From the NCBI GenBank assembly GCA_018267625.1, contig JAFDYC010000074.1:62001-126000 (forward strand): DNA of 64,000 nucleotides. Direction: 5' to 3'. The position numbers and the translations under genes were made by a program. The stretch comes from Bacteroidota bacterium (GTDB lineage: Bacteria > Bacteroidota > Bacteroidia > Chitinophagales > Chitinophagaceae). Shown here piece after piece: positions 26,360-36,080 of the stretch. The first letter of the stretch is position 1; the number at the start of each line of letters is the position of its first letter. The notes beneath the pieces were generated by a model. It saw only the letters and a program-made list of their open reading frames with translations. It had not been told where the DNA came from and ran no database searches.

Positions 26360-26373
26360 CTGACAGAAATCAC
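26360..26373 (+). promoter_or_regulatory. FNR/CRP-like operator 1 of the cbb3 locus
   Basis: CTGACAGAAATCAC: TGA-N6-TCA, the half-site spacing of FNR-type sites (TTGAT-N4-ATCAA). Thirteen bases (CTGACAGAAATCA) are identical to the site at 29507-29519. Its centre (26366.5) is 51.5 bases before a -7-like box at 26418. A second palindrome CCTGA-GTAG-TCAGG lies at 26403-26416. Confidence 0.55.
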
Positions 26374-26417
26374 TTTTTGTTCCGTGCCGCATCATTTCCC
26401 TGCCTGAGTAGTCAGGA

Positions 26418-26425
26418 TACTTTCG
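26418..26425 (+). promoter_or_regulatory. -7-like box before the Cys-rich protein gene and ccoI
   Basis: TACTTTCG, one mismatch to TAnnTTTG, 27 bases before ATG 26452. There is no good -33 TTG at the normal spacing, as expected for an activator-dependent promoter. Confidence 0.4.
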
Positions 26426-26451
26426 CTTTTGTCTTGAAAAGTATAGTACCC

Positions 26452-26994
26452 ATGCCCCTTCCGCTACCGGATTGTCAGGATTTACGCCAGCTCGTTGCCC
26501 ACCTAGATGGTCTGTATGTGCAACTATCCGCTCTTTGCGAGCGTTCAGCCTCCCTGTTGCCGGAAGTGCAGTATCGCGACCATGGCGCTAAGCTTCGTAT
26601 CTACACTAGCCTTTGTGCCAACCTAAACACACAGCTTGGGCAATACATGCGTCTGCGCCGACTGGTAATCCTGCCTTATTTCGAAGAACTGAAACAAAAG
26701 GAAGAAGAAGGCCACGACTGTCGTAGCTGCGGCGGGCGCTGCGAAATGCAACATAGCCGCCACGTGATGGACATTCAGGAAGCACACGCCAGCCTCCATG
26801 AACTGGCCGAACATCTGCATCCTTTCAACTTATCCCTGCCTGCCTCATCGCTGACTGGCACTGAGCTGCTGCGCGATTTTCGCGCCACTGTAATAAAAGT
26901 CGAAGAATTACTGACTGAAATCCTGTTCATCGAAGAGTCTGCCCTGGTGCCGCTGATAAAAGAACTACAGCGCAAAATCTGGGCTCATGAGTAA
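26452..26994 (+). CDS. Helical protein of unknown function with a Cys/His/Met cluster, coupled to ccoI
   Basis: 180 residues from ATG 26452; a frame from 26275 is longer but overlaps the MscS gene and lacks resemblance to a protein start. The sequence is predicted mostly alpha-helical, with no signal or membrane segment. In the middle it carries CRSCGGRCEMQHSRH, a compact CxxCxxxC-x-M-x-H cluster that could bind copper, iron or zinc. Its 3' end overlaps ccoI by 8 bases, and it sits behind the first FNR-like site, so it is the first gene of the cbb3 maturation unit. I recognise no family. A cytoplasmic metal donor or sensor for CcoI is a reasonable hypothesis; a hemerythrin-like bundle is another. 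Confidence 0.7.
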   Translation: MPLPLPDCQDLRQLVAHLDGLYVQLSALCERSASLLPEVQYRDHGAKLRIYTSLCANLNTQLGQYMRLRRLVILPYFEELKQKEEEGHDCRSCGGRCEMQHSRHVMDIQEAHASLHELAEHLHPFNLSLPASSLTGTELLRDFRATVIKVEELLTEILFIEESALVPLIKELQRKIWAHE

Positions 26995-29494
26995 GCCTCA
27001 AACCCGTAAAATCACTGAAAAAGCTGAACACCCTGCAAGAAGCAGTGAAGAGCAGCTTTGCTTTCACTGCGGCACTCCTTGCCTCGGTGCACATTTTTCT
27101 TTTGAGGAAAAACAGTTTTGCTGCGATGGTTGCAAGCTCGTCTATGAAATCCTTTCCAGTAAAGGCCTCTGCAACTATTACGAATTAGAACAGCATCCAG
27201 GCCTGACGCAAATCCGACCGCTACGCACTGAAAAATTTGCATACCTCGACAATGAAGCGATTGCCGTTAAGCTGTGCAGTTTCCGCACGGCGGAATACAG
27301 CATCGTTACGCTATACCTGCCGGGTGTTCATTGCGCTTCCTGCCTTTGGTTGCTGGAGCACCTGTCGCAGGTGAACCCCGCCATCACTCAGAGCCGACTT
27401 TCTTTCAGCACTAAAGAACTCAGCGTTCACTTTCGCCATGAAGGAATGAGCCTGGGCCAGCTTGCTGCCTTGCTCAGCACCATTGGCTATGAGCCCTACA
27501 TCAGCCTGGATGATGCCGACCGGAAGCGCGTTTCCAACCATACTTTCGACCGTGCCCGCATTGCCCGCCTTGGGGTAGCCGGCTTCTGCTTTGGCAATAT
27601 CATGATGCTCGCCTTTCCGGAATATTTCGGTGGCGGCGACATAGGCCTCCGCTTCACTCAGTTGTTTCGATGGTTGAGTGTGGCGCTCTCTATTCCGGTA
27701 TTTTTCTATTGCGCTTCGGAGTTTTTTGTGAATGCCTGGAGCAGCCTGAGGCAAATTTTTTCCACTCAAAGAAGAGGAGCTGCTCTTTTCAATATTGATG
27801 CACCTATTGCATTAGCCATCCTCATCACCTTCATCCGAAGCCTCTATGAAATATTCAGTGGAACGGGCAGTGGCTATTTAGATAGCATGAGCGGGATTGT
27901 GTTCTTTATGCTCGTGGGTAGGGTGGTGCAGGAACGTACTTTCCGCAGTCTTTCTTTCCATCGCGATTACAAGGCTTATTTCCCTATTGCCGTCACCGTG
28001 CAGACAGAATCAGGCAAGTGTAGCCGTAGCCTGCATGATTTGAAAGCCGGTGACCAGGTACTGATTTCAAACGAAGAAATCATCCCCGCTGATGGCACTA
28101 TGCTGGAAGGTGAGGCCCGTATTGACTACAGCTTTGTGACCGGCGAGAGCGAACAGGTACTTCTGCATCCGGGCCAGAAAGTATATGCCGGAGGCCGGCA
28201 AAAAGGTGCGCAAATGCTCATGCTGGTTGAGAAGCCAGTGGCCGGAAGCTATCTCAGCTCACTTTGGAACAACCACGCTTTTTCAAAAAACAAGCAGGAA
28301 GAAGCATACAGCCGTAGTTCAGTCCATCGGATCAGTATTTGGTTTACGGTAGTGTTATTCACGCTGGCCGCCGTCACTACGGTATGGTGGGCGATACACG
28401 ACCCTTCCAAGATGATACCGGCGGTTTCCACCATGCTCATTGTGGCTTGCCCATGCGCGCTCTTGCTCTGCGCCAGTTTCACACAGGGTTCTTTGATGCG
28501 CCTGTTTTCAGAGCATGGTCTTTTCCTTCGTGATGCTACGGTGATAGAAAAATTGAGCAGTGTAAGTCATGTGGTATTCGATAAGACGGGCACACTCACA
28601 ACCGGCAGTATGCTGCGACCGGAACCAGGAACAGCACCATTTTCTACTGAAGAAAAAATATGGGTCGCTGCAATAGTCACCCGAAGTAATCATCCAAGGA
28701 GCCGGGCATTGGCGGAATATCTGGGGCCTCAGGAGCATGCCAATGTGTTGAATTGGGAGCATGTCGCGGGGGCCGGTGTTCGGGCTATTGTACGGGGGCG
28801 GAGGGTGTTGGTGGGGAATGCACTTTTTTGTGGTAGCCCGAAATCTGCAGAGCTCGTAGTGCGTATAGATGGTAGCTTTTTTTACTTCCAGGAAGTACCC
28901 TGTTTGCGGGAAGGTTTACCCGAAATGCTACGCAGGCTGAAGCCGCGTTTTTCCTTGTCCCTGATCTCGGGCGATGGCTTCCGGCATTTCAGCAGTATGC
29001 GGCAACTTTTTGGAAGCAGTCAACTGCATTTTCAGCAACGGCCCGAAGAAAAGCTGCACTATGTTGAATCACTCCAGCATCAGGGGGAACATGTATTAAT
29101 GATTGGTGATGGTCTGAATGATGCCGGTGCCTTGCAGCAAAGTGATACGGGCATAACCCTGGCAGAAGATGTAAACAATTTCACGCCCTCCTGCGATGCT
29201 ATTCTGGATTCTCGCCAGCTTAGCCAATTGCCGGCCTTGCTGACGATGGCCCGTTGGGGGGGCTATCTCATCCACTTTGCTTTTGGCCTTTCTCTGCTCT
29301 ACAATTTCGTTGGTCTCTATTTCGCCATGCGTGCGGAGATGCACCCACTCATTGCAGCCATCCTGATGCCGGCCAGCACTTTAAGCATAGTCTTGGTCAG
29401 TGTCGGCTTCAGTGCCATGCTGGGCCGTTGGATATTAAAGCCGGATACGGCAACAAGCAGGCGGGATACAGTTCGTAAGGCAATAAAAGTGTAG
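26987..29494 (+). CDS. ccoI: Copper-translocating P-type ATPase CcoI/FixI
   Basis: An 835-residue P1B-type ATPase for cbb3 oxidase assembly. The N-terminus has a Cys-rich zinc/copper-binding domain (FHCGTPC and FCCDGCK), then an HMA domain with CASC at 116-119. Eight membrane segments follow. The intramembrane copper motif CPC is at 488-490, the phosphorylation motif DKTGT starts at 532 and the hinge GDGLND starts at about 707. It exports copper to the periplasmic side for the CuB site of CcoN. The heavy Cys-rich N-terminus is typical of the Bacteroidota and Proteobacteria FixI type. Confidence 0.95.
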   Translation: MSKPQTRKITEKAEHPARSSEEQLCFHCGTPCLGAHFSFEEKQFCCDGCKLVYEILSSKGLCNYYELEQHPGLTQIRPLRTEKFAYLDNEAIAVKLCSFRTAEYSIVTLYLPGVHCASCLWLLEHLSQVNPAITQSRLSFSTKELSVHFRHEGMSLGQLAALLSTIGYEPYISLDDADRKRVSNHTFDRARIARLGVAGFCFGNIMMLAFPEYFGGGDIGLRFTQLFRWLSVALSIPVFFYCASEFFVNAWSSLRQIFSTQRRGAALFNIDAPIALAILITFIRSLYEIFSGTGSGYLDSMSGIVFFMLVGRVVQERTFRSLSFHRDYKAYFPIAVTVQTESGKCSRSLHDLKAGDQVLISNEEIIPADGTMLEGEARIDYSFVTGESEQVLLHPGQKVYAGGRQKGAQMLMLVEKPVAGSYLSSLWNNHAFSKNKQEEAYSRSSVHRISIWFTVVLFTLAAVTTVWWAIHDPSKMIPAVSTMLIVACPCALLLCASFTQGSLMRLFSEHGLFLRDATVIEKLSSVSHVVFDKTGTLTTGSMLRPEPGTAPFSTEEKIWVAAIVTRSNHPRSRALAEYLGPQEHANVLNWEHVAGAGVRAIVRGRRVLVGNALFCGSPKSAELVVRIDGSFFYFQEVPCLREGLPEMLRRLKPRFSLSLISGDGFRHFSSMRQLFGSSQLHFQQRPEEKLHYVESLQHQGEHVLMIGDGLNDAGALQQSDTGITLAEDVNNFTPSCDAILDSRQLSQLPALLTMARWGGYLIHFAFGLSLLYNFVGLYFAMRAEMHPLIAAILMPASTLSIVLVSVGFSAMLGRWILKPDTATSRRDTVRKAIKV

Positions 29495-29505
29495 CAAAAC
29501 ACTGC

Positions 29506-29521
29506 ACTGACAGAAATCAGT
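29506..29521 (+). promoter_or_regulatory. FNR/CRP-like operator 2, before ccoS-ccoNO
   Basis: ACTGACAGAAATCAGT: perfect 5-bp arms ACTGA/TCAGT around CAGAAA. It shares 13 identical bases with operator 1 at 26360 and lies 12 bases past the ccoI stop. The centre (29513.5) is 51.5 bases before the -7-like box at 29565, the same distance as at operator 1. Confidence 0.6.
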
Positions 29522-29564
29522 ATTTACATCGGTAAACATCATAACCGCCGGCTTGGGCCCCGGA

Positions 29565-29572
29565 TAGTTTTA
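29565..29572 (+). promoter_or_regulatory. -7-like box before ccoS-ccoNO
   Basis: TAGTTTTA, one mismatch to TAnnTTTG, 23 bases before the GTG of ccoS. No -33 TTG at the right distance. Placement relative to operator 2 equals that of 26418 to operator 1. Confidence 0.4.
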
Positions 29573-29594: not shown

Positions 29595-29732
29595 GTGAGT
29601 GCGCTTCTCATCCTGGTTCTGGCATCTGTGGCGGTAGCCTGCGGTTTCCTGATTGCTTTTTTGTGGTCCGTAAAAGCAGGGCAGTATGACGATAAGCAAG
29701 GCGCAGCCATGCGCATGTTGCACGACGATTAA
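29595..29732 (+). CDS. ccoS: cbb3-type oxidase assembly protein CcoS
   Basis: A 45-residue protein starting at GTG. One membrane helix (SALLILVLASVAVACGFLIA) is followed by FLWSVKAGQYDD and a short tail ending MRMLHDD, the CcoS signature (GQFDD...RML.DD). CcoS is needed for cofactor insertion into the cbb3 catalytic subunit. It lies between ccoI and ccoNO in the expected order. Confidence 0.88.
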   Translation: MSALLILVLASVAVACGFLIAFLWSVKAGQYDDKQGAAMRMLHDD

Positions 29733-29782: not shown

Positions 29783-31966
29783 ATGGACCCCAGCAAAACG
29801 CTTCATTCAAATGCCGCGCTCGAAAGCAGCTTAGGCCCAATGGATCAATTCAGCTACGACAATAAGATTGTCCGGCTATTCACTTACGCCACCCTTTTTT
29901 GGGGTATAGTTGGCATGTTGGTCGGGCTCTGGGCCGCGCTACAACTCAGCTTCCCACAACTGACCTTCAACCTGCCGGCAACCACCTTTGGAAGGGTACG
30001 GCCGGTGCATACCAATGCCGTCATTTTTGCCTTTGTCGGTAATGGCATTTTCATGGGGGTTTACTACTCTCTGCAACGGCTCTGCAAGGCCCGCATGTTT
30101 TCCGATTTGCTCAGCAAAATTCATTTCTGGGGCTGGCAGTTGATTATTGTTTTAGGTGCAGTAACCCTGATGGCAGGCTACACCAGCGGTAAGGAGTATG
30201 CAGAGTTAGAATGGCCATTAGACATCCTGATTGCTATCGTGTGGGTCATTTTCGGCTGGAACATGTTTGGCACCATCATGCGCCGTAGGGAAAGGCATCT
30301 TTATGTCGCCATCTGGTTCTACATCGCAACCTTCGTCACGGTGGCGATGCTGCATATCGTCAACAGCCTGGAAATCCCTTTTAGCTGGATGAAGAGCTAT
30401 AGCCTCTACGCCGGCGTGCAGGATGCGCTGGTGCAATGGTGGTACGGGCACAATGCTGTGGCCTTTTTCCTGACCACACCGTATCTCGGCCTGATGTATT
30501 ATTTCCTGCCGAAAGCTGCCAACCGACCCGTGTATTCCTACCGGCTTTCTATCATTCACTTCTGGGCACTCATCTTCCTCTATATATGGGCCGGGCCGCA
30601 CCACCTCCTTTACAATGCACTGCCTGATTGGGCACAGAGCCTCGGTACTGTCTTCTCGGTGATGCTGATTGCCCCCAGTTGGGGCGGTATGATCAATGGC
30701 TTGCTCACCCTGAGAGGTGCCTGGGATAAAGTGCGTGAAGACCCCGTGCTGAAGTTTATGGTCGTAGCCATCACAGCCTACGGCATGGCCACTTTTGAAG
30801 GCCCCTTGCTTTCATTGAAAAGTGTGAATGCTATTTCGCACTTCACCGACTGGACCATTGCTCACGTGCATGTAGGTGCGCTCGGCTGGAATGGCTTCCT
30901 CACATTCGGCATTATCTACTGGCTCGTTCCCAGGATTTTCAAGACAGAACTCTATTCAAAGAAACTGGCCAACGCACACTTCTGGATTGGTACCCTCGGC
31001 ATCATCTTCTATGTAGTTCCAATGTATTGGGCGGGTTTCATGCATGCTTCTCAGATGAAAGAATTCACAGCAGAAGGGCAGCTAAAATACCAGTTTCTGG
31101 AAACGGTTCAGTACATGAAACCCTTCTACTTGCTGCGTTCTGTGGGTGGCTCTTTGTTCCTGGTCGGTGCGCTGATCATGTGCTACAACATCATCAAGAC
31201 CATCCGCCTGGGTAAGGCTGTGGACACGGAACCCGCACAGGCATTGCCGCTGGCCAAGCAGGAAGTAGCACATCCGGGCGTGAAAGACCATTGGCATCGC
31301 TGGATTGAAAGACGCCCGGTTCAATTGATGCTGGGCTCTCTGGTGGTTGTTATTATCGGCGGTGCAGTTGAGTTCATACCTACATTTTTAGTGAAAAGCA
31401 ATGTGCCCACCATTGCCAGCGTGAAACCCTACACGCCTCTGGAATTGGAAGGCCGCGACATCTATGTGCGTGAAGGCTGCTACACCTGCCACAGTCAGAT
31501 GGTTCGTCCCTTCCGCGATGAGGTGGCCCGTTATGGTGAATACAGTAAAGCCGGTGAAAGTGTGTACGACCATCCGTTCCAATGGGGCAGCAAACGAACC
31601 GGCCCCGACCTGGCACGGGAAGGAGGAAAATATCCGGATAGCTGGCACTTCAACCACATGTATGAGCCGACCAGCATGAGCCCAGGCTCGGTGATGCCAC
31701 CTTATCCCTGGTTGATGCGCAATACCATAGATGCTTCCACAACACCCCGGAAAATTCGGGCCATGCAAAAGCTGGGTGTCCCCTATCCCGCAGGCTACGA
31801 CCGGCAGGCTGTGGCAGACATGGAGCAGCAGGCTGCAAAAATTCAGGCCAGCCTGGCTAAGGATAAGATTGAAGTAAAGAGTGATAAAGAAATCATCGCC
31901 CTCATCGCATATCTGCAACGCCTCGGTAAAGACATCAAGGCAGCCGATAAGATGGCCTCAAACTAA
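29783..31966 (+). CDS. ccoN: cbb3-type cytochrome c oxidase, fused subunits I and II (CcoNO)
   Basis: A 727-residue fusion. Residues about 20-485 are CcoN, the twelve-helix catalytic subunit with heme b, heme b3 and CuB (VRPVHTNAVIFAF, WYGHNAVAFFLT, YIWAGPHHLLYNALPDW, HFTDWTIAHVHVGALGW supply the His ligands). After a membrane anchor near 515-530 comes the CcoO part, with heme c motif CYTCH at 566-570, SQMVRPFRDEVARYGEYS, and a later Met ligand (SMSPGSVMPPYPWL). The fusion is the standard Bacteroidota form. It reduces oxygen to water at low oxygen tension and pumps protons. Confidence 0.96.
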   Translation: MDPSKTLHSNAALESSLGPMDQFSYDNKIVRLFTYATLFWGIVGMLVGLWAALQLSFPQLTFNLPATTFGRVRPVHTNAVIFAFVGNGIFMGVYYSLQRLCKARMFSDLLSKIHFWGWQLIIVLGAVTLMAGYTSGKEYAELEWPLDILIAIVWVIFGWNMFGTIMRRRERHLYVAIWFYIATFVTVAMLHIVNSLEIPFSWMKSYSLYAGVQDALVQWWYGHNAVAFFLTTPYLGLMYYFLPKAANRPVYSYRLSIIHFWALIFLYIWAGPHHLLYNALPDWAQSLGTVFSVMLIAPSWGGMINGLLTLRGAWDKVREDPVLKFMVVAITAYGMATFEGPLLSLKSVNAISHFTDWTIAHVHVGALGWNGFLTFGIIYWLVPRIFKTELYSKKLANAHFWIGTLGIIFYVVPMYWAGFMHASQMKEFTAEGQLKYQFLETVQYMKPFYLLRSVGGSLFLVGALIMCYNIIKTIRLGKAVDTEPAQALPLAKQEVAHPGVKDHWHRWIERRPVQLMLGSLVVVIIGGAVEFIPTFLVKSNVPTIASVKPYTPLELEGRDIYVREGCYTCHSQMVRPFRDEVARYGEYSKAGESVYDHPFQWGSKRTGPDLAREGGKYPDSWHFNHMYEPTSMSPGSVMPPYPWLMRNTIDASTTPRKIRAMQKLGVPYPAGYDRQAVADMEQQAAKIQASLAKDKIEVKSDKEIIALIAYLQRLGKDIKAADKMASN

Positions 31967-32025: not shown

Positions 32026-32226
32026 ATGAAACTCAGAAACTACTTGGAAAGTATTGCGGGTGTGGGCATTTTCCCGGTCATCACACTGGTCCTCTTTTTT
32101 GCCGTGTTCGTGACACTGGGAGCTTGGGCCATCCTTGCCCGCAGGGAACACCTCCATGCCATGAATCAGTTGCCACTTCATGAAGACGGCAGCACCGAAA
32201 CAGAAACCATCCATTCAAAAGCATAA
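32026..32226 (+). CDS. ccoQ: CcoQ-like small subunit of cbb3 oxidase
   Basis: 66 residues with one membrane helix (FPVITLVLFFAVFVTLGAWA) followed by a charged tail containing RREHLHAMNQLPL. It stands between ccoNO and ccoP, where CcoQ (FixQ) is expected. CcoQ stabilises the complex. The sequence is poorly conserved in the family, so position weighs heavily in this call. Confidence 0.82.
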   Translation: MKLRNYLESIAGVGIFPVITLVLFFAVFVTLGAWAILARREHLHAMNQLPLHEDGSTETETIHSKA

Positions 32227-32238
32227 GCTGATTTTTTC

Positions 32239-33417
32239 ATGAAATCTGCGATTCAGAAACTCTTCTTCTCCGTGCTCTTCCTAGCGCCCGGAGCCGCCTT
32301 TGCTGCCGAAAATGGCACTGCGCCCGGCAGTTTTAACCCGCTCCTTTGGGGCTTGTTCAGCATCATCTTAGTGCTGGCTGTGGCCATCATCATGTTGCTG
32401 TTTGTCTATCAGCAACTGGCTTTTGCCTATCGCGACAAACTTCGGAAAGAGCGCAGTGGAGGCACCGCTGTCAAGGCTCTTATCCTGTTGCTGATGTCCG
32501 GTTTTGCGGCTATGAATTCATGGGCTCAGGAAGCTGCTGCCGCCACCGCTCCGGTCGTTGCGCCCTCATCTCCGCTTATTAATGGCATCCCACGATTTGA
32601 CTTCTATGCCATCCTGGGTTTTATCGCCTTTGAGCTTTTACTCATTGGCGTATTGCTCCACATTATCCTACGCATGGTCAGTCTGCTGCGCGACAAGCCA
32701 CAGGCTGCTGCAGCAATTCAGTCTTCTTTCCTGAAGAAAATACTGCATAAACTCACCAATACGGTAGCTGTGAAGGATGAAGAACGCATCGTGTTGCAGC
32801 ATGATTATGACGGTATCCGGGAATTAGACAACAGCCTGCCTCCCTGGTGGAAATACGGATTTATCGCAACTATCATTTTCGCCTTTGCCTACATGTGGTA
32901 TTACCAGGTGCATCATGGCCCTAATCAGATTGACGAATACAAAGCGGCAGTAGCCAAGGCTGAAAAAGAACAAGCAGCCTACATGGCTAAAGCCGGCAAC
33001 GTAGTTGACGAATCGAACGTGACCCTGATAGAAGACAAAGCCGAGCTTGCCGATGCTGCTGCCTTGTTTAAAAATACCTGTGCTGCCTGCCATCGCGAAG
33101 ATGCCGGTGGAATGGTCGGCCCCAACCTGACGGATAATTATTGGTTGCATGGGGGCACCCTTCAGGATGTCTTTAAGAGCATCAAGTATGGTTGGAAAGA
33201 CAAGGGTATGCCGGAGTGGCAACACAACATGAGCGCAAAGCAAATCGCCGGCCTGGCCAGCTATATCAAACACCTGAGCGGAAAAAATGTACCAGGTGGC
33301 AAGGCACCTCAGGGCGAATTGTTTGTGGATGGAGGCAATGCAGTAGCAAAAGATTCATCAGCCAAAGCCAGCGAAAACAAGATCACCCAACATAAAGACG
33401 AACGAGCGAAAAGCTAA
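32239..33417 (+). CDS. ccoP: cbb3 oxidase subunit III (CcoP), single-heme form
   Basis: 392 residues. A signal-like N-terminal helix is followed by two further membrane segments (residues about 30-55 and 118-145). The cbb3 N-terminal motif YDGIRELDNSLPPWWKYGF leads into the anchoring helix, and a cytochrome c domain has CAACH at 281-285 with a Met ligand in KGMPEWQ. Classical CcoP has two CxxCH motifs; only one is present here. This is common in Bacteroidota but changes the electron path. The N-terminal 150 residues are longer than in proteobacterial CcoP. Confidence 0.92.
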   Translation: MKSAIQKLFFSVLFLAPGAAFAAENGTAPGSFNPLLWGLFSIILVLAVAIIMLLFVYQQLAFAYRDKLRKERSGGTAVKALILLLMSGFAAMNSWAQEAAAATAPVVAPSSPLINGIPRFDFYAILGFIAFELLLIGVLLHIILRMVSLLRDKPQAAAAIQSSFLKKILHKLTNTVAVKDEERIVLQHDYDGIRELDNSLPPWWKYGFIATIIFAFAYMWYYQVHHGPNQIDEYKAAVAKAEKEQAAYMAKAGNVVDESNVTLIEDKAELADAAALFKNTCAACHREDAGGMVGPNLTDNYWLHGGTLQDVFKSIKYGWKDKGMPEWQHNMSAKQIAGLASYIKHLSGKNVPGGKAPQGELFVDGGNAVAKDSSAKASENKITQHKDERAKS

Positions 33418-33459: not shown

Positions 33460-34887
33460 ATGAAGACACTCACCGGAACTAAGACGCATCAAACAGAAGA
33501 ACCAGAAGCTTTTCGCGACCGGGTAGCCACTATTGATGAAAAAGGGAAGCGCATTTGGCTCTTCCCGCAAAAGCCCAAAGGCAAATACTATACCTGGCGC
33601 AGCTTACTCACGGTACTTTACTTAGTCACTTTGTTTGGCCTGCCTTTCCTGAAGGTGAATGGGCATCCTTTATTTCTGTTCGATGTCACACACCGGAAGT
33701 TTATCCTCTTCGGTCAGATTTTCTGGCCTCAGGACTTTTTCATTTTCGCGGTAGGCATGTTGTTGTTTATCGTCTTCATTGCCTTGTTTACAGTAGTCTT
33801 TGGCCGTGTGTTTTGTGGCTGGATGTGCCCGCAAACCATCTTCATGGAAATGATTTTCCGGAAGATTGAATACTGGATTGAAGGCGATGCTCCGGCTCAG
33901 AAAATGCTCGCCCGTGCCCCCTGGACCACTGAGAAACTACTCAAGAAAAGCAGCAAATGGATAGCCTTTTGGCTGCTTTCATTCATTATCGCCAACACCT
34001 TCCTTGCTTATGTCGTCGGCGTAGAGGCACTTCGGGCTATCATCACAGAACCCTTGTCCGAACATATAGGAGGCTTCACGGGCATCCTCATTTTTACTTC
34101 GATATTCTTCTTTGTCTATCTCCGATTCCGGGAACAGGTGTGCACCGTTGTTTGTCCCTATGGGCGCCTGCAAAGTGTGTTGCTGGATAAAAACAGTATC
34201 GTGGTGGCATACGACTATTCGCGGGGGGAGCCACGAGGCAAATTCAAAAAGAATGAAACCCGCGACAAAGGCGATTGTATTGATTGTTTTCAATGCGTGA
34301 AAGTCTGCCCGACGGGTATAGACATCCGGCATGGTACTCAAATGGAGTGTGTGAATTGCACTGCCTGCATGGATGCCTGCGATCATATGATGGATGCTGT
34401 AGGCTTGCCGCAAGGCCTTATTCGCTACACCTCTGAAAACAGCATTCAGCATGGGAAACAGAAATTCTGGACCCGCCGTGTGATCGGATACGTTGCCGTG
34501 ATGTTGCTCTTGCTCGTTACAGAATCGTTCCTGCTCATTAGCCGTAGCGATGTCGGCGTGAATATCATGCGCACGCCTGGTCAGCTCTATCAGGAGCAGC
34601 CCAATGACCAGCTCAGCAACCTCTACAGTTACAAACTCCTCAATAAAACCTACGCCGACAAAGAGCTCAGCTTCCGCCTCGAAAACGTCCCCGGCGAAAT
34701 CCGGCTGGTTGGAAATAAGAAACTACAAGTGCCCAAGGAGGATGACGCATCCGGTGAGATGTTCATCTTCTTAGATCGCAAACAGGTGCACGACCGAAAG
34801 ACCGAATTGGAAATCGGCGTTTGGGAAGGAGATAAAAAACTCATGACGGTAAACACCAGTTTCCTGGGGCCATTCAAAGCTGATTAA
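33460..34887 (+). CDS. ccoG: Cytochrome c oxidase accessory protein CcoG (FixG)
   Basis: A 475-residue polytopic membrane ferredoxin-like protein with five or so helices. The NapH/FixG motif GRVFCGWMCPQTIFMEMIF comes first. Then CTVVCPYGRLQ, CIDCFQCVKVCP and CVNCTACMDACD provide ligands for two [4Fe-4S] clusters. A C-terminal Ig-like domain (FixG_C) lies outside. CcoG is a cupric reductase needed to deliver copper(I) to the CuB centre. Confidence 0.95.
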   Translation: MKTLTGTKTHQTEEPEAFRDRVATIDEKGKRIWLFPQKPKGKYYTWRSLLTVLYLVTLFGLPFLKVNGHPLFLFDVTHRKFILFGQIFWPQDFFIFAVGMLLFIVFIALFTVVFGRVFCGWMCPQTIFMEMIFRKIEYWIEGDAPAQKMLARAPWTTEKLLKKSSKWIAFWLLSFIIANTFLAYVVGVEALRAIITEPLSEHIGGFTGILIFTSIFFFVYLRFREQVCTVVCPYGRLQSVLLDKNSIVVAYDYSRGEPRGKFKKNETRDKGDCIDCFQCVKVCPTGIDIRHGTQMECVNCTACMDACDHMMDAVGLPQGLIRYTSENSIQHGKQKFWTRRVIGYVAVMLLLLVTESFLLISRSDVGVNIMRTPGQLYQEQPNDQLSNLYSYKLLNKTYADKELSFRLENVPGEIRLVGNKKLQVPKEDDASGEMFIFLDRKQVHDRKTELEIGVWEGDKKLMTVNTSFLGPFKAD

Positions 34888-34908: not shown

Positions 34909-35358
34909 ATGACCATCAATTGGGGCACTCGGATTCTCCTGCTGTATGTCGGATTTGTTGCGCTGATCGGGCTACTGGTTTGGAAAAGCATGCATACCAA
35001 AGTGAACCTCGTAACAGAGGATTACTACGCTCAGGAACTCGTTTTTCAAAAGAAATTAGATGCAGAAAGGGCCTCCAGCCTGCTGGCTCAAAAGCCGGTA
35101 GTCAGCCTGACGCCGAAGGAAATAATCATATTCTTCCCTCCCGGATTCTCCGGGAAAAACATTGAGGGGCATCTGCAACTCTATTTCGCTCCTGATGCTG
35201 CGCTCGACCGGCAATTTGAGCACCTCCAGGCACACGATGGACAAATTAGTATCCCGCGCAAGTACATTGCTCAATTGAAGTACACAGCAAAGCTTAGCTG
35301 GACTTGTGAAGGCACCACCTATTATCAGGAATACCCCCTCAACCTGCAAGCATCATGA
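34909..35358 (+). CDS. ccoH: FixH/CcoH-family protein
   Basis: 149 residues with one N-terminal membrane helix (ILLLYVGFVALIGLLVWKSM) and the FixH signature LVTEDYYAQELVFQKKLDAE, followed by a beta-rich periplasmic domain. It assists assembly of the cbb3 complex. The stop codon overlaps the next start (ATGA at 35355), so the next gene is translationally coupled. Confidence 0.92.
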   Translation: MTINWGTRILLLYVGFVALIGLLVWKSMHTKVNLVTEDYYAQELVFQKKLDAERASSLLAQKPVVSLTPKEIIIFFPPGFSGKNIEGHLQLYFAPDAALDRQFEHLQAHDGQISIPRKYIAQLKYTAKLSWTCEGTTYYQEYPLNLQAS

Positions 35359-36080
35359 ACGCAGCCCTCATGCTCAGTGTGCTGGTGATGGGCCTGGCCG
35401 GCAGCCTGCATTGTGCAGGTATGTGCGGTCCTATCGTCTGGATGATGCCTTTTCATCAAGACCGGGGCTGGCGGCGAGCCATTAGTATCGGGATGTATCA
35501 TTTGGGGCGGCTCAGTGCATACGCCGTTCTGGGACTGGTACTGTTTTCGTTTAAAGAATTGTTTCACCCGCAGTGGCAGCAATATGTTTCGCTGCTTGCC
35601 GGCCTCATGTTGTTGGCTCTGGGTGTGTTTTATTTCCTGCCCCAGTTAGGGTTAAAAATCCGCCTTCCCTGGACCGGAATAGTTACGATGGCACTTGGAA
35701 AGGTGCTGACGAAACGGCGCAAAGGCTGGCTGTTGGCGGCGGGGCTCCTCAATGGTTTGTTGCCCTGTGGTATGGTCTATATGGCGCTGGCTGCTGCTTT
35801 GAATATGGAAACCGCCGGACAGGCTGCTGCGGTGATGTATGCCTTCGGAGCGGGTACGCTTCCCATGATGGTTTCGCTCAGCCTGCTGCGTGGGAAAATG
35901 AGGATACCGGCTGGAGCGCTAAGGAAATGGACTCCGGTTATCATGCTGCTTTTCGGCTGTCTGTTTGTGCTACGCGGTGCCAATCTGGGCATTCCGTACC
36001 TCAGCCCGAAATTGGAAATGCACACAACGACCGGGCTAACGGAACGGTCGGCACTTAGGTGTTGCCAGAAGGCGGAATAG
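35355..36080 (+). CDS. SafE/UreH-type membrane protein of the cbb3 locus
   Basis: 241 residues with six membrane segments. The N-terminal MGLAGSLHCAGMCGPIVWMM contains the CxxxC/Met motif of the UreH_2/SafE family, and LLNGLLPCGMVYMAL is a second Cys motif. In cbb3 clusters such proteins are thought to help copper transport or cofactor delivery; annotation as a sulfite exporter reflects family naming only. It ends the unit, 3 bases from the convergent LUD gene. Confidence 0.85.
   Translation: MNAALMLSVLVMGLAGSLHCAGMCGPIVWMMPFHQDRGWRRAISIGMYHLGRLSAYAVLGLVLFSFKELFHPQWQQYVSLLAGLMLLALGVFYFLPQLGLKIRLPWTGIVTMALGKVLTKRRKGWLLAAGLLNGLLPCGMVYMALAAALNMETAGQAAAVMYAFGAGTLPMMVSLSLLRGKMRIPAGALRKWTPVIMLLFGCLFVLRGANLGIPYLSPKLEMHTTTGLTERSALRCCQKAE

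Follow-up and report, generated by a model that had tools for sequence, protein, structure and literature searches.

In Proteobacteria, the ccoNOQP (fixNOQP) genes of the cbb3 oxidase are activated, together with related low-oxygen genes, by FNR or FixK, which bind operators with a TGA-N6-TCA core. To our knowledge, little is known about the way Bacteroidota outside the gut sense a fall in oxygen. We compared these described systems with a gene cluster for the cbb3 oxidase, a respiratory oxidase of high affinity, of a Bacteroidota bacterium (Chitinophagaceae) that lies in a window of 64 kilobases (kb), by which we mean the whole stretch analysed (positions 62,001-126,000 of contig JAFDYC010000074.1, assembly GCA_018267625.1; referred to as genome G000). 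In this cluster, the regions 26360-26425 and 29507-29572 are very likely two conserved, activator-dependent promoters of the Crp/Fnr type, and both are probably oxygen-responsive.

Like the FNR- and FixK-dependent promoters of Proteobacteria, these two carry a Crp/Fnr operator with a TGA-N6-TCA core at cbb3 genes. They differ in having A or C in place of the outer T of TTGAT-N4-ATCAA and in placing the core in a Bacteroidota promoter of the TAnnTTTG kind, with a pair of operators spaced 22 base pairs (bp), the proximal one being degenerate here. Compared with the class II (-41.5) and class I promoters of CRP and FNR in Escherichia coli, the proximal centre is likewise put at -41.5, with the promoter box at -12 to -5, and the distal operator would face the same side of the helix; here, however, the distal centre is put at -63.5, the 22-bp spacing of the pair holds from genus to genus and one promoter family has a constant proximal half-site. 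With the FixL-FixJ(-FixK) cascade the candidate regulatory system would share a soluble PAS kinase and a response regulator, but the candidate response regulator bears the CRP DNA-binding part itself, where FixJ has an output that switches on FixK as a separate activator. Within the same phylum and with the same promoter class, Flavobacterium psychrophilum strongly induces its cbb3 oxidase under oxygen limitation, and its heme synthesis enzymes as well (PMC9723704); neither a regulator nor an operator of the Crp/Fnr family is mentioned in the main text of that paper (fnr and crp: 0 occurrences). No prior description of the operator pair was found in the open-access literature, subscription papers and regulon databases being outside the search, and what was found there were general low-oxygen data only (PMC9723704). 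The promoter pair is ordinary in principle and distinctly arranged. It provides a searchable promoter code for the low-oxygen response, with predictions at the level of single bases and two candidate regulators with a common recognition helix, and suggests that sensors may be exchanged in front of an operator array that itself does not change.

Two promoters of one layout

An earlier sequence-only reading of the window had drawn attention to a 13-base word, CTGACAGAAATCA, inside the cbb3 locus. We recovered it at 26360-26372 and 29507-29519, and a search of the complete genome (3,020,674 bases, 3.02 Mb) returned no other copy. The second copy has perfect 5-bp arms (ACTGA/TCAGT), as had been stated, and the identical promoter spacing that had been claimed was found as well: in both cases the operator centre lies 51.5 bases before a -7-like box (TACTTTCG at 26418-26425 and TAGTTTTA at 29565-29572), and the boxes are followed after 26 and 22 nucleotides by the start codons ATG (26452) and GTG (29595). 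Each box matches the Bacteroidota sigma-A -7 box TAnnTTTG at 5 of 6 positions, the exact box being present in many relatives. In F. psychrophilum this box spans -12 to -5 (PMC9723704). When that numbering is carried over from the other genus, the operator centres are inferred to lie at -63.5 (distal) and -41.5 (proximal), and transcription is predicted to start at about 26430 and about 29577, the starts that the sequence-only reading had named.

Promoter 1, on the forward strand, would consist of the distal operator TGACAGAAATCA (26361-26372), a proximal operator remnant CGTGCCGCATCA (26383-26394) and the -7 box TACTTTCG; promoter 2, on the same strand, would consist of TGACAGAAATCA (29508-29519), the remnant CGGTAAACATCA (29530-29541) and TAGTTTTA. 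The proximal operator is cut down to its right half, TCAT, in both. A TTG at the usual -33 place is absent from both promoters, as one would expect if they depend on an activator. The operators had been described as FNR/CRP-like, which holds in so far as TGA-N6-TCA is a Crp/Fnr-type core. The canonical FNR/FixK box TTGAT-N4-ATCAA, on the other hand, is not matched (the window sites read CTGAC...ATCA), and the regulator in this genome is probably no plain FNR. Nor does the box of CRP-cAMP, TGTGA-N6-TCACA, fit, since neither window site has TG before TGA or CA after TCA and the consensus at ccoS promoters of relatives differs from it too.

Taken by itself, the 13-mer is weak evidence within the window, where 3 matches with at most 2 mismatches were found against 1.5 expected. 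One of these, the near-copy CTGACTGAAATCC at 26911-26923 inside orf180, has 2 mismatches and no visible promoter geometry, and is probably due to chance. The shared geometry is strong evidence that the sites are real: a relaxed pattern of operator, half-operator (TCA half only) and -7 box, searched in the own genome with 0 mismatches, matched both window promoters and nothing else, with about 0.1 matches expected from the specified bases. The remaining geometry matches in this genome were few and close to chance level. A larger set of strict targets was not apparent there either, as the 49 palindromes of the form MTGAYN4RTCAK are mostly intragenic and have the geometry only at the second window site.

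Conservation in relatives and the reading of the promoters

For comparison, 80 cbb3 loci were fetched and 68 ccoS upstream regions compared. The motif TGA-N6-TCA is present in 42 of these 68 regions, against 3 on average and at most 8 in 500 Markov shuffles, while other dyad gaps (0-5 and 7-13) showed no enrichment in the same regions; the expected enrichment before ccoS in relatives was thus borne out, and the motif also precedes respiration-type genes there. Site pairs within one region lie exactly 22 bp apart in 22 cases, every other spacing occurring once. The distance from the T of TGA to an exact TAnnTTTG box is 57 bases in 17 cases, 35 bases in another 17 and different in 2, and both window sites use the 57-base distance. 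Several Flavobacteriaceae have the proximal (35-base) operator as their single one, and in 20 of 29 well-matched ccoS regions a complete TGA-N6-TCA occupies the proximal place. For the first site, the consensus reads [AC]TGA[CT]AAAA[AG]TCA[TG]; of 41 ccoS sites, 37 have A or C immediately before TGA, and C or T predominates at the inner position. The conserved spacer of the sequence-only reading is therefore to be understood as an A-rich part of the motif (YAAAAR), CAGAAA being no fixed word.

The strict tandem pattern TGAN6TCA-N10-TGAN6TCA-N23-TAnnTTT was found at 141 places in 56 of 101 related genomes, and its reversed control at 0 places in every genome. When the phylum was sampled evenly, the pattern turned up in 6 of the 9 genomes from the own family and order, in 6 of 28 further members of the class, and in 2 of the 111 remaining genomes. 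Judged from these comparisons, a large group of Bacteroidota has conserved the design with two operators 22 bases apart. The own genome contains no strict tandem because its proximal operators are degenerate. Genes 3' of the strict tandem sites in relatives include ccoI, ccoS, hemN-like radical SAM, Ric/ScdA, cytochrome c, Rrf2 regulator, Usp and pyridoxamine-oxidase-like genes, among others. This target set is akin to known FNR regulons.

A similar result was obtained for promoter 1. In ten promoters of the orf180 family, the window promoter included, TGA-N6-TCA-N19-TCAT is common to all and the proximal TGA half occurs in none, with a -7 box 57 bases on that begins with TA in nine and GA in one. 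The family precedes ccoI in several relatives, and its promoter carries a conserved one-and-a-half operator. Since the half-site form is kept in 10/10 of these promoters, each of the two window promoters is conserved separately.

According to the mechanism we propose, promoter 1 would drive orf180-ccoI and promoter 2 ccoS-ccoNO-ccoQ-ccoP-ccoG-ccoH, with a common layout of an operator at -63.5, a second place at -41.5 (22 bp or two helical turns further) and the TAnnTTTG -7 box. Once bound to the strong distal site, one dimer would help another to occupy the weak place at -41.5, and this second dimer would substitute for the missing -33 contact and recruit RNA polymerase, i.e. class II activation aided by class I. 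A site around -62 to -64 had been said to suit class I activation, and the predicted centre of -63.5 agrees with this; however, the site is the distal one of two arrayed operators, the proximal being degenerate here, and is not fully explained by simple class I.

Pure class I activation from the distal operator, with the proximal TCAT as a variant -33 sigma element, we consider rather unlikely. It would account for the orf180 family, in which all ten promoters retain TCAT and never TGA, as a contact of sigma or RNA polymerase might, but not for the full TGA-N6-TCA at the proximal place in so many ccoS regions (20/29), nor for the Flavobacteriaceae with a proximal operator only, 35 bases before the box; moreover, 23 bases separate the end of the TCA from the box, a gap that falls outside the usual -33 TTG spacing. 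The sequence-only reading had also offered, as one of two options, that one promoter arose as a copy of the other, and a local duplication or gene conversion would indeed give an identical 13-mer, spacer included; under the motif, exact identity of the 6-base spacer has a probability of about 0.007, and elsewhere the two promoters of one genome share 2 to 5 of the 6 spacer bases. The flanks of the two sites are nevertheless dissimilar, with 16/60, 19/45 and 12/34 matches, no better than background. Distant relatives, moreover, hold both promoters at orthologous places with differing spacers, so that each predates any copying in this lineage. On these grounds copying was rejected as highly improbable. 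Chance resemblance without function has a negligible probability: the 13-mer with mismatches is not rare in 64 kb, and the 49 similar palindromes, the second window site among them, mostly lie within genes, but operators, spacing and box are conserved across species, which refutes this reading. It is the return of the same geometry in relatives that sets the two sites apart from coincidence.

Candidate regulators and the signal

The own genome encodes only three PF00027 proteins, namely a receiver-CRP fusion (PF00072, PF00027 and PF13545; G000:C32:31811-32866) that adjoins a PAS kinase gene, an FNR-like protein at C35 and a short Crp/Fnr protein of 207 amino acids. The PAS histidine kinase and the receiver-CRP protein are encoded in one operon (L184, 4664-6870), with the kinase gene just 5'; a diverging open reading frame (ORF) of 124 amino acids lies 5' of this operon, and its relatives (L118, L143 and L228) have upstream tandem operators. 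We hold with moderate confidence, and less firmly than the reading of the operators, that the receiver-CRP fusion is the regulator here and would be switched by the adjoining kinase. In many relatives, an FNR-type protein encoded next to the cluster, with conserved cysteines and the same helix, would read the same operators; receiver-CRP or FNR-type genes flank many cbb3 loci.

The recognition helices point in this direction. That of the own receiver-CRP protein is GTAKESLIR (GTATESLIR in its family) and that of the FNR-type proteins encoded beside cbb3 clusters in relatives GTATE[ST]xIR, whereas the other two own PF00027 proteins have GTIYETVFK (the C35 protein) and GTARVVVSR; this places the receiver-CRP protein with the cluster-linked FNR-type proteins, none of which is found among the three own PF00027 proteins. 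In the 101 related genomes, tandem sites and receiver-CRP occur together in 48, tandem sites alone in 8, receiver-CRP alone in 15 and neither in 30 (odds ratio 12, p 1e-7, both inflated by the kinship of the genomes). Of the eight tandem-only genomes seven have an FNR-type protein and the eighth is 72% complete. Among 94 listed tandem places in receiver-CRP genomes, 44 lie within 20 kb of the receiver-CRP gene and 27 within 5 kb.

Several points weigh against our interpretation. In the own genome just half of the proximal operator is left, so that binding of a second dimer is a prediction only, and 15 receiver-CRP genomes are without the strict tandem. Because the genomes are related, the p-value of the co-occurrence overstates their independence. 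No operator was found 5' of the own receiver-CRP operon, so that its autoregulation was rejected and lends the assignment no support. The C35 protein, with its conserved cysteine set and E-x3-K helix, might read the TGA core too.

That this C35 protein (G000:C35:29442-30149), as a direct sensor of oxygen or nitric oxide, reads the promoters instead of the receiver-CRP protein is an alternative of some weight, albeit an unlikely one. For several cluster-linked FNR-type proteins it gave the best BLAST match of the three (about 30-35% identity), its N-terminal cysteine cluster and central cysteine (position 111) are kept in its subfamily, and its recognition helix has E-x3-K/R. On the other hand, GTIYETVFK is unlike the GTATE[ST]xIR common to the receiver-CRP and cluster-linked proteins, the subfamily is missing from most tandem-bearing genomes, and no TGA-N6-TCA with box occurs in 11 kb around the C35 gene. 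One relative (G028) has the subfamily and lacks both receiver-CRP and tandem sites, which fits regulation by the receiver-CRP protein. The C35 locus (L185, 4443-5153) represents an FNR-like subfamily with C-x4-C-x2-C-x2-C, a central cysteine and the helix GTxYETVFK.

Concerning the signal, the PAS domain of the kinase matches the heme PAS domains of FixL and DosP (E about 1e-10 to 1e-7), and a histidine that recurs in most of the linked kinases where such a PAS could be recognised aligns with their proximal heme histidine. As the top match is a PAS domain whose ligand is unstated in the match table, heme binding is hypothetical; low oxygen is the likeliest signal. A broader account, which we put forward tentatively as one slightly more likely to fail than to hold, is that in the surrounding class one low-oxygen promoter code (-63.5, -41.5 and -7 box) is served by two interchangeable sensors with the same helix, a one-component FNR-type and a two-component receiver-CRP protein, and that in this lineage the FNR-type protein was lost, the two-component system took over cbb3 and the proximal operator decayed to a half-site.

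Genes of the cluster and further tandem sites

All genes of the cluster lie on the forward strand. The first, orf180 (26452-26994), directly 5' of ccoI, encodes an uncharacterised protein without Pfam match, in whose family H88, C90, C93 and C97 (own numbering; H-x-C-x2-C-x3-C) are invariant. Its predicted structure is a four-helix bundle (predicted local distance difference test score, pLDDT, 82), for which a fold search among solved structures gave no significant match, and the protein is a candidate for a metal-binding factor in the assembly of the oxidase. It is followed by ccoI (26987-29494), a P-type ATPase with N-terminal metal-binding domain (PF12156, PF00122, PF00702), ccoS with a GTG start (29595-29732; PF03597 FixS, E 1.9e-18) and ccoNO (29783-31966), which encodes fused cbb3 oxidase subunits I and II (PF00115, PF02433). 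A ccoQ-like small subunit gene (32026-32226) has no Pfam match, a similar small ORF being found at the equal place in relatives. Next come ccoP (32239-33417; PF14715, PF13442), ccoG (33460-34887), named from gene order and conserved in position in relatives, and ccoH (34909-35358; PF05751 FixH), and the cluster ends with a gene for a DsbD_2-domain membrane protein (35355-36080; PF13386).

At five tandem places in relatives (G030:C1:2159833, G044:C91:10283, G091:C11:986316, G015:C308:707 and G024:C1:1378363), the operators match on both strands 30 bases apart, so that a single pair of operators seems to be shared by two diverging promoters of equal spacing. In a genome of the same genus (G002:C33; L216, 4600-5200), a repetitive stretch with ECHQCTNG-like repeats in translation sits beside a tandem-operator promoter, 5' of a predicted decarboxylase-like ORF.

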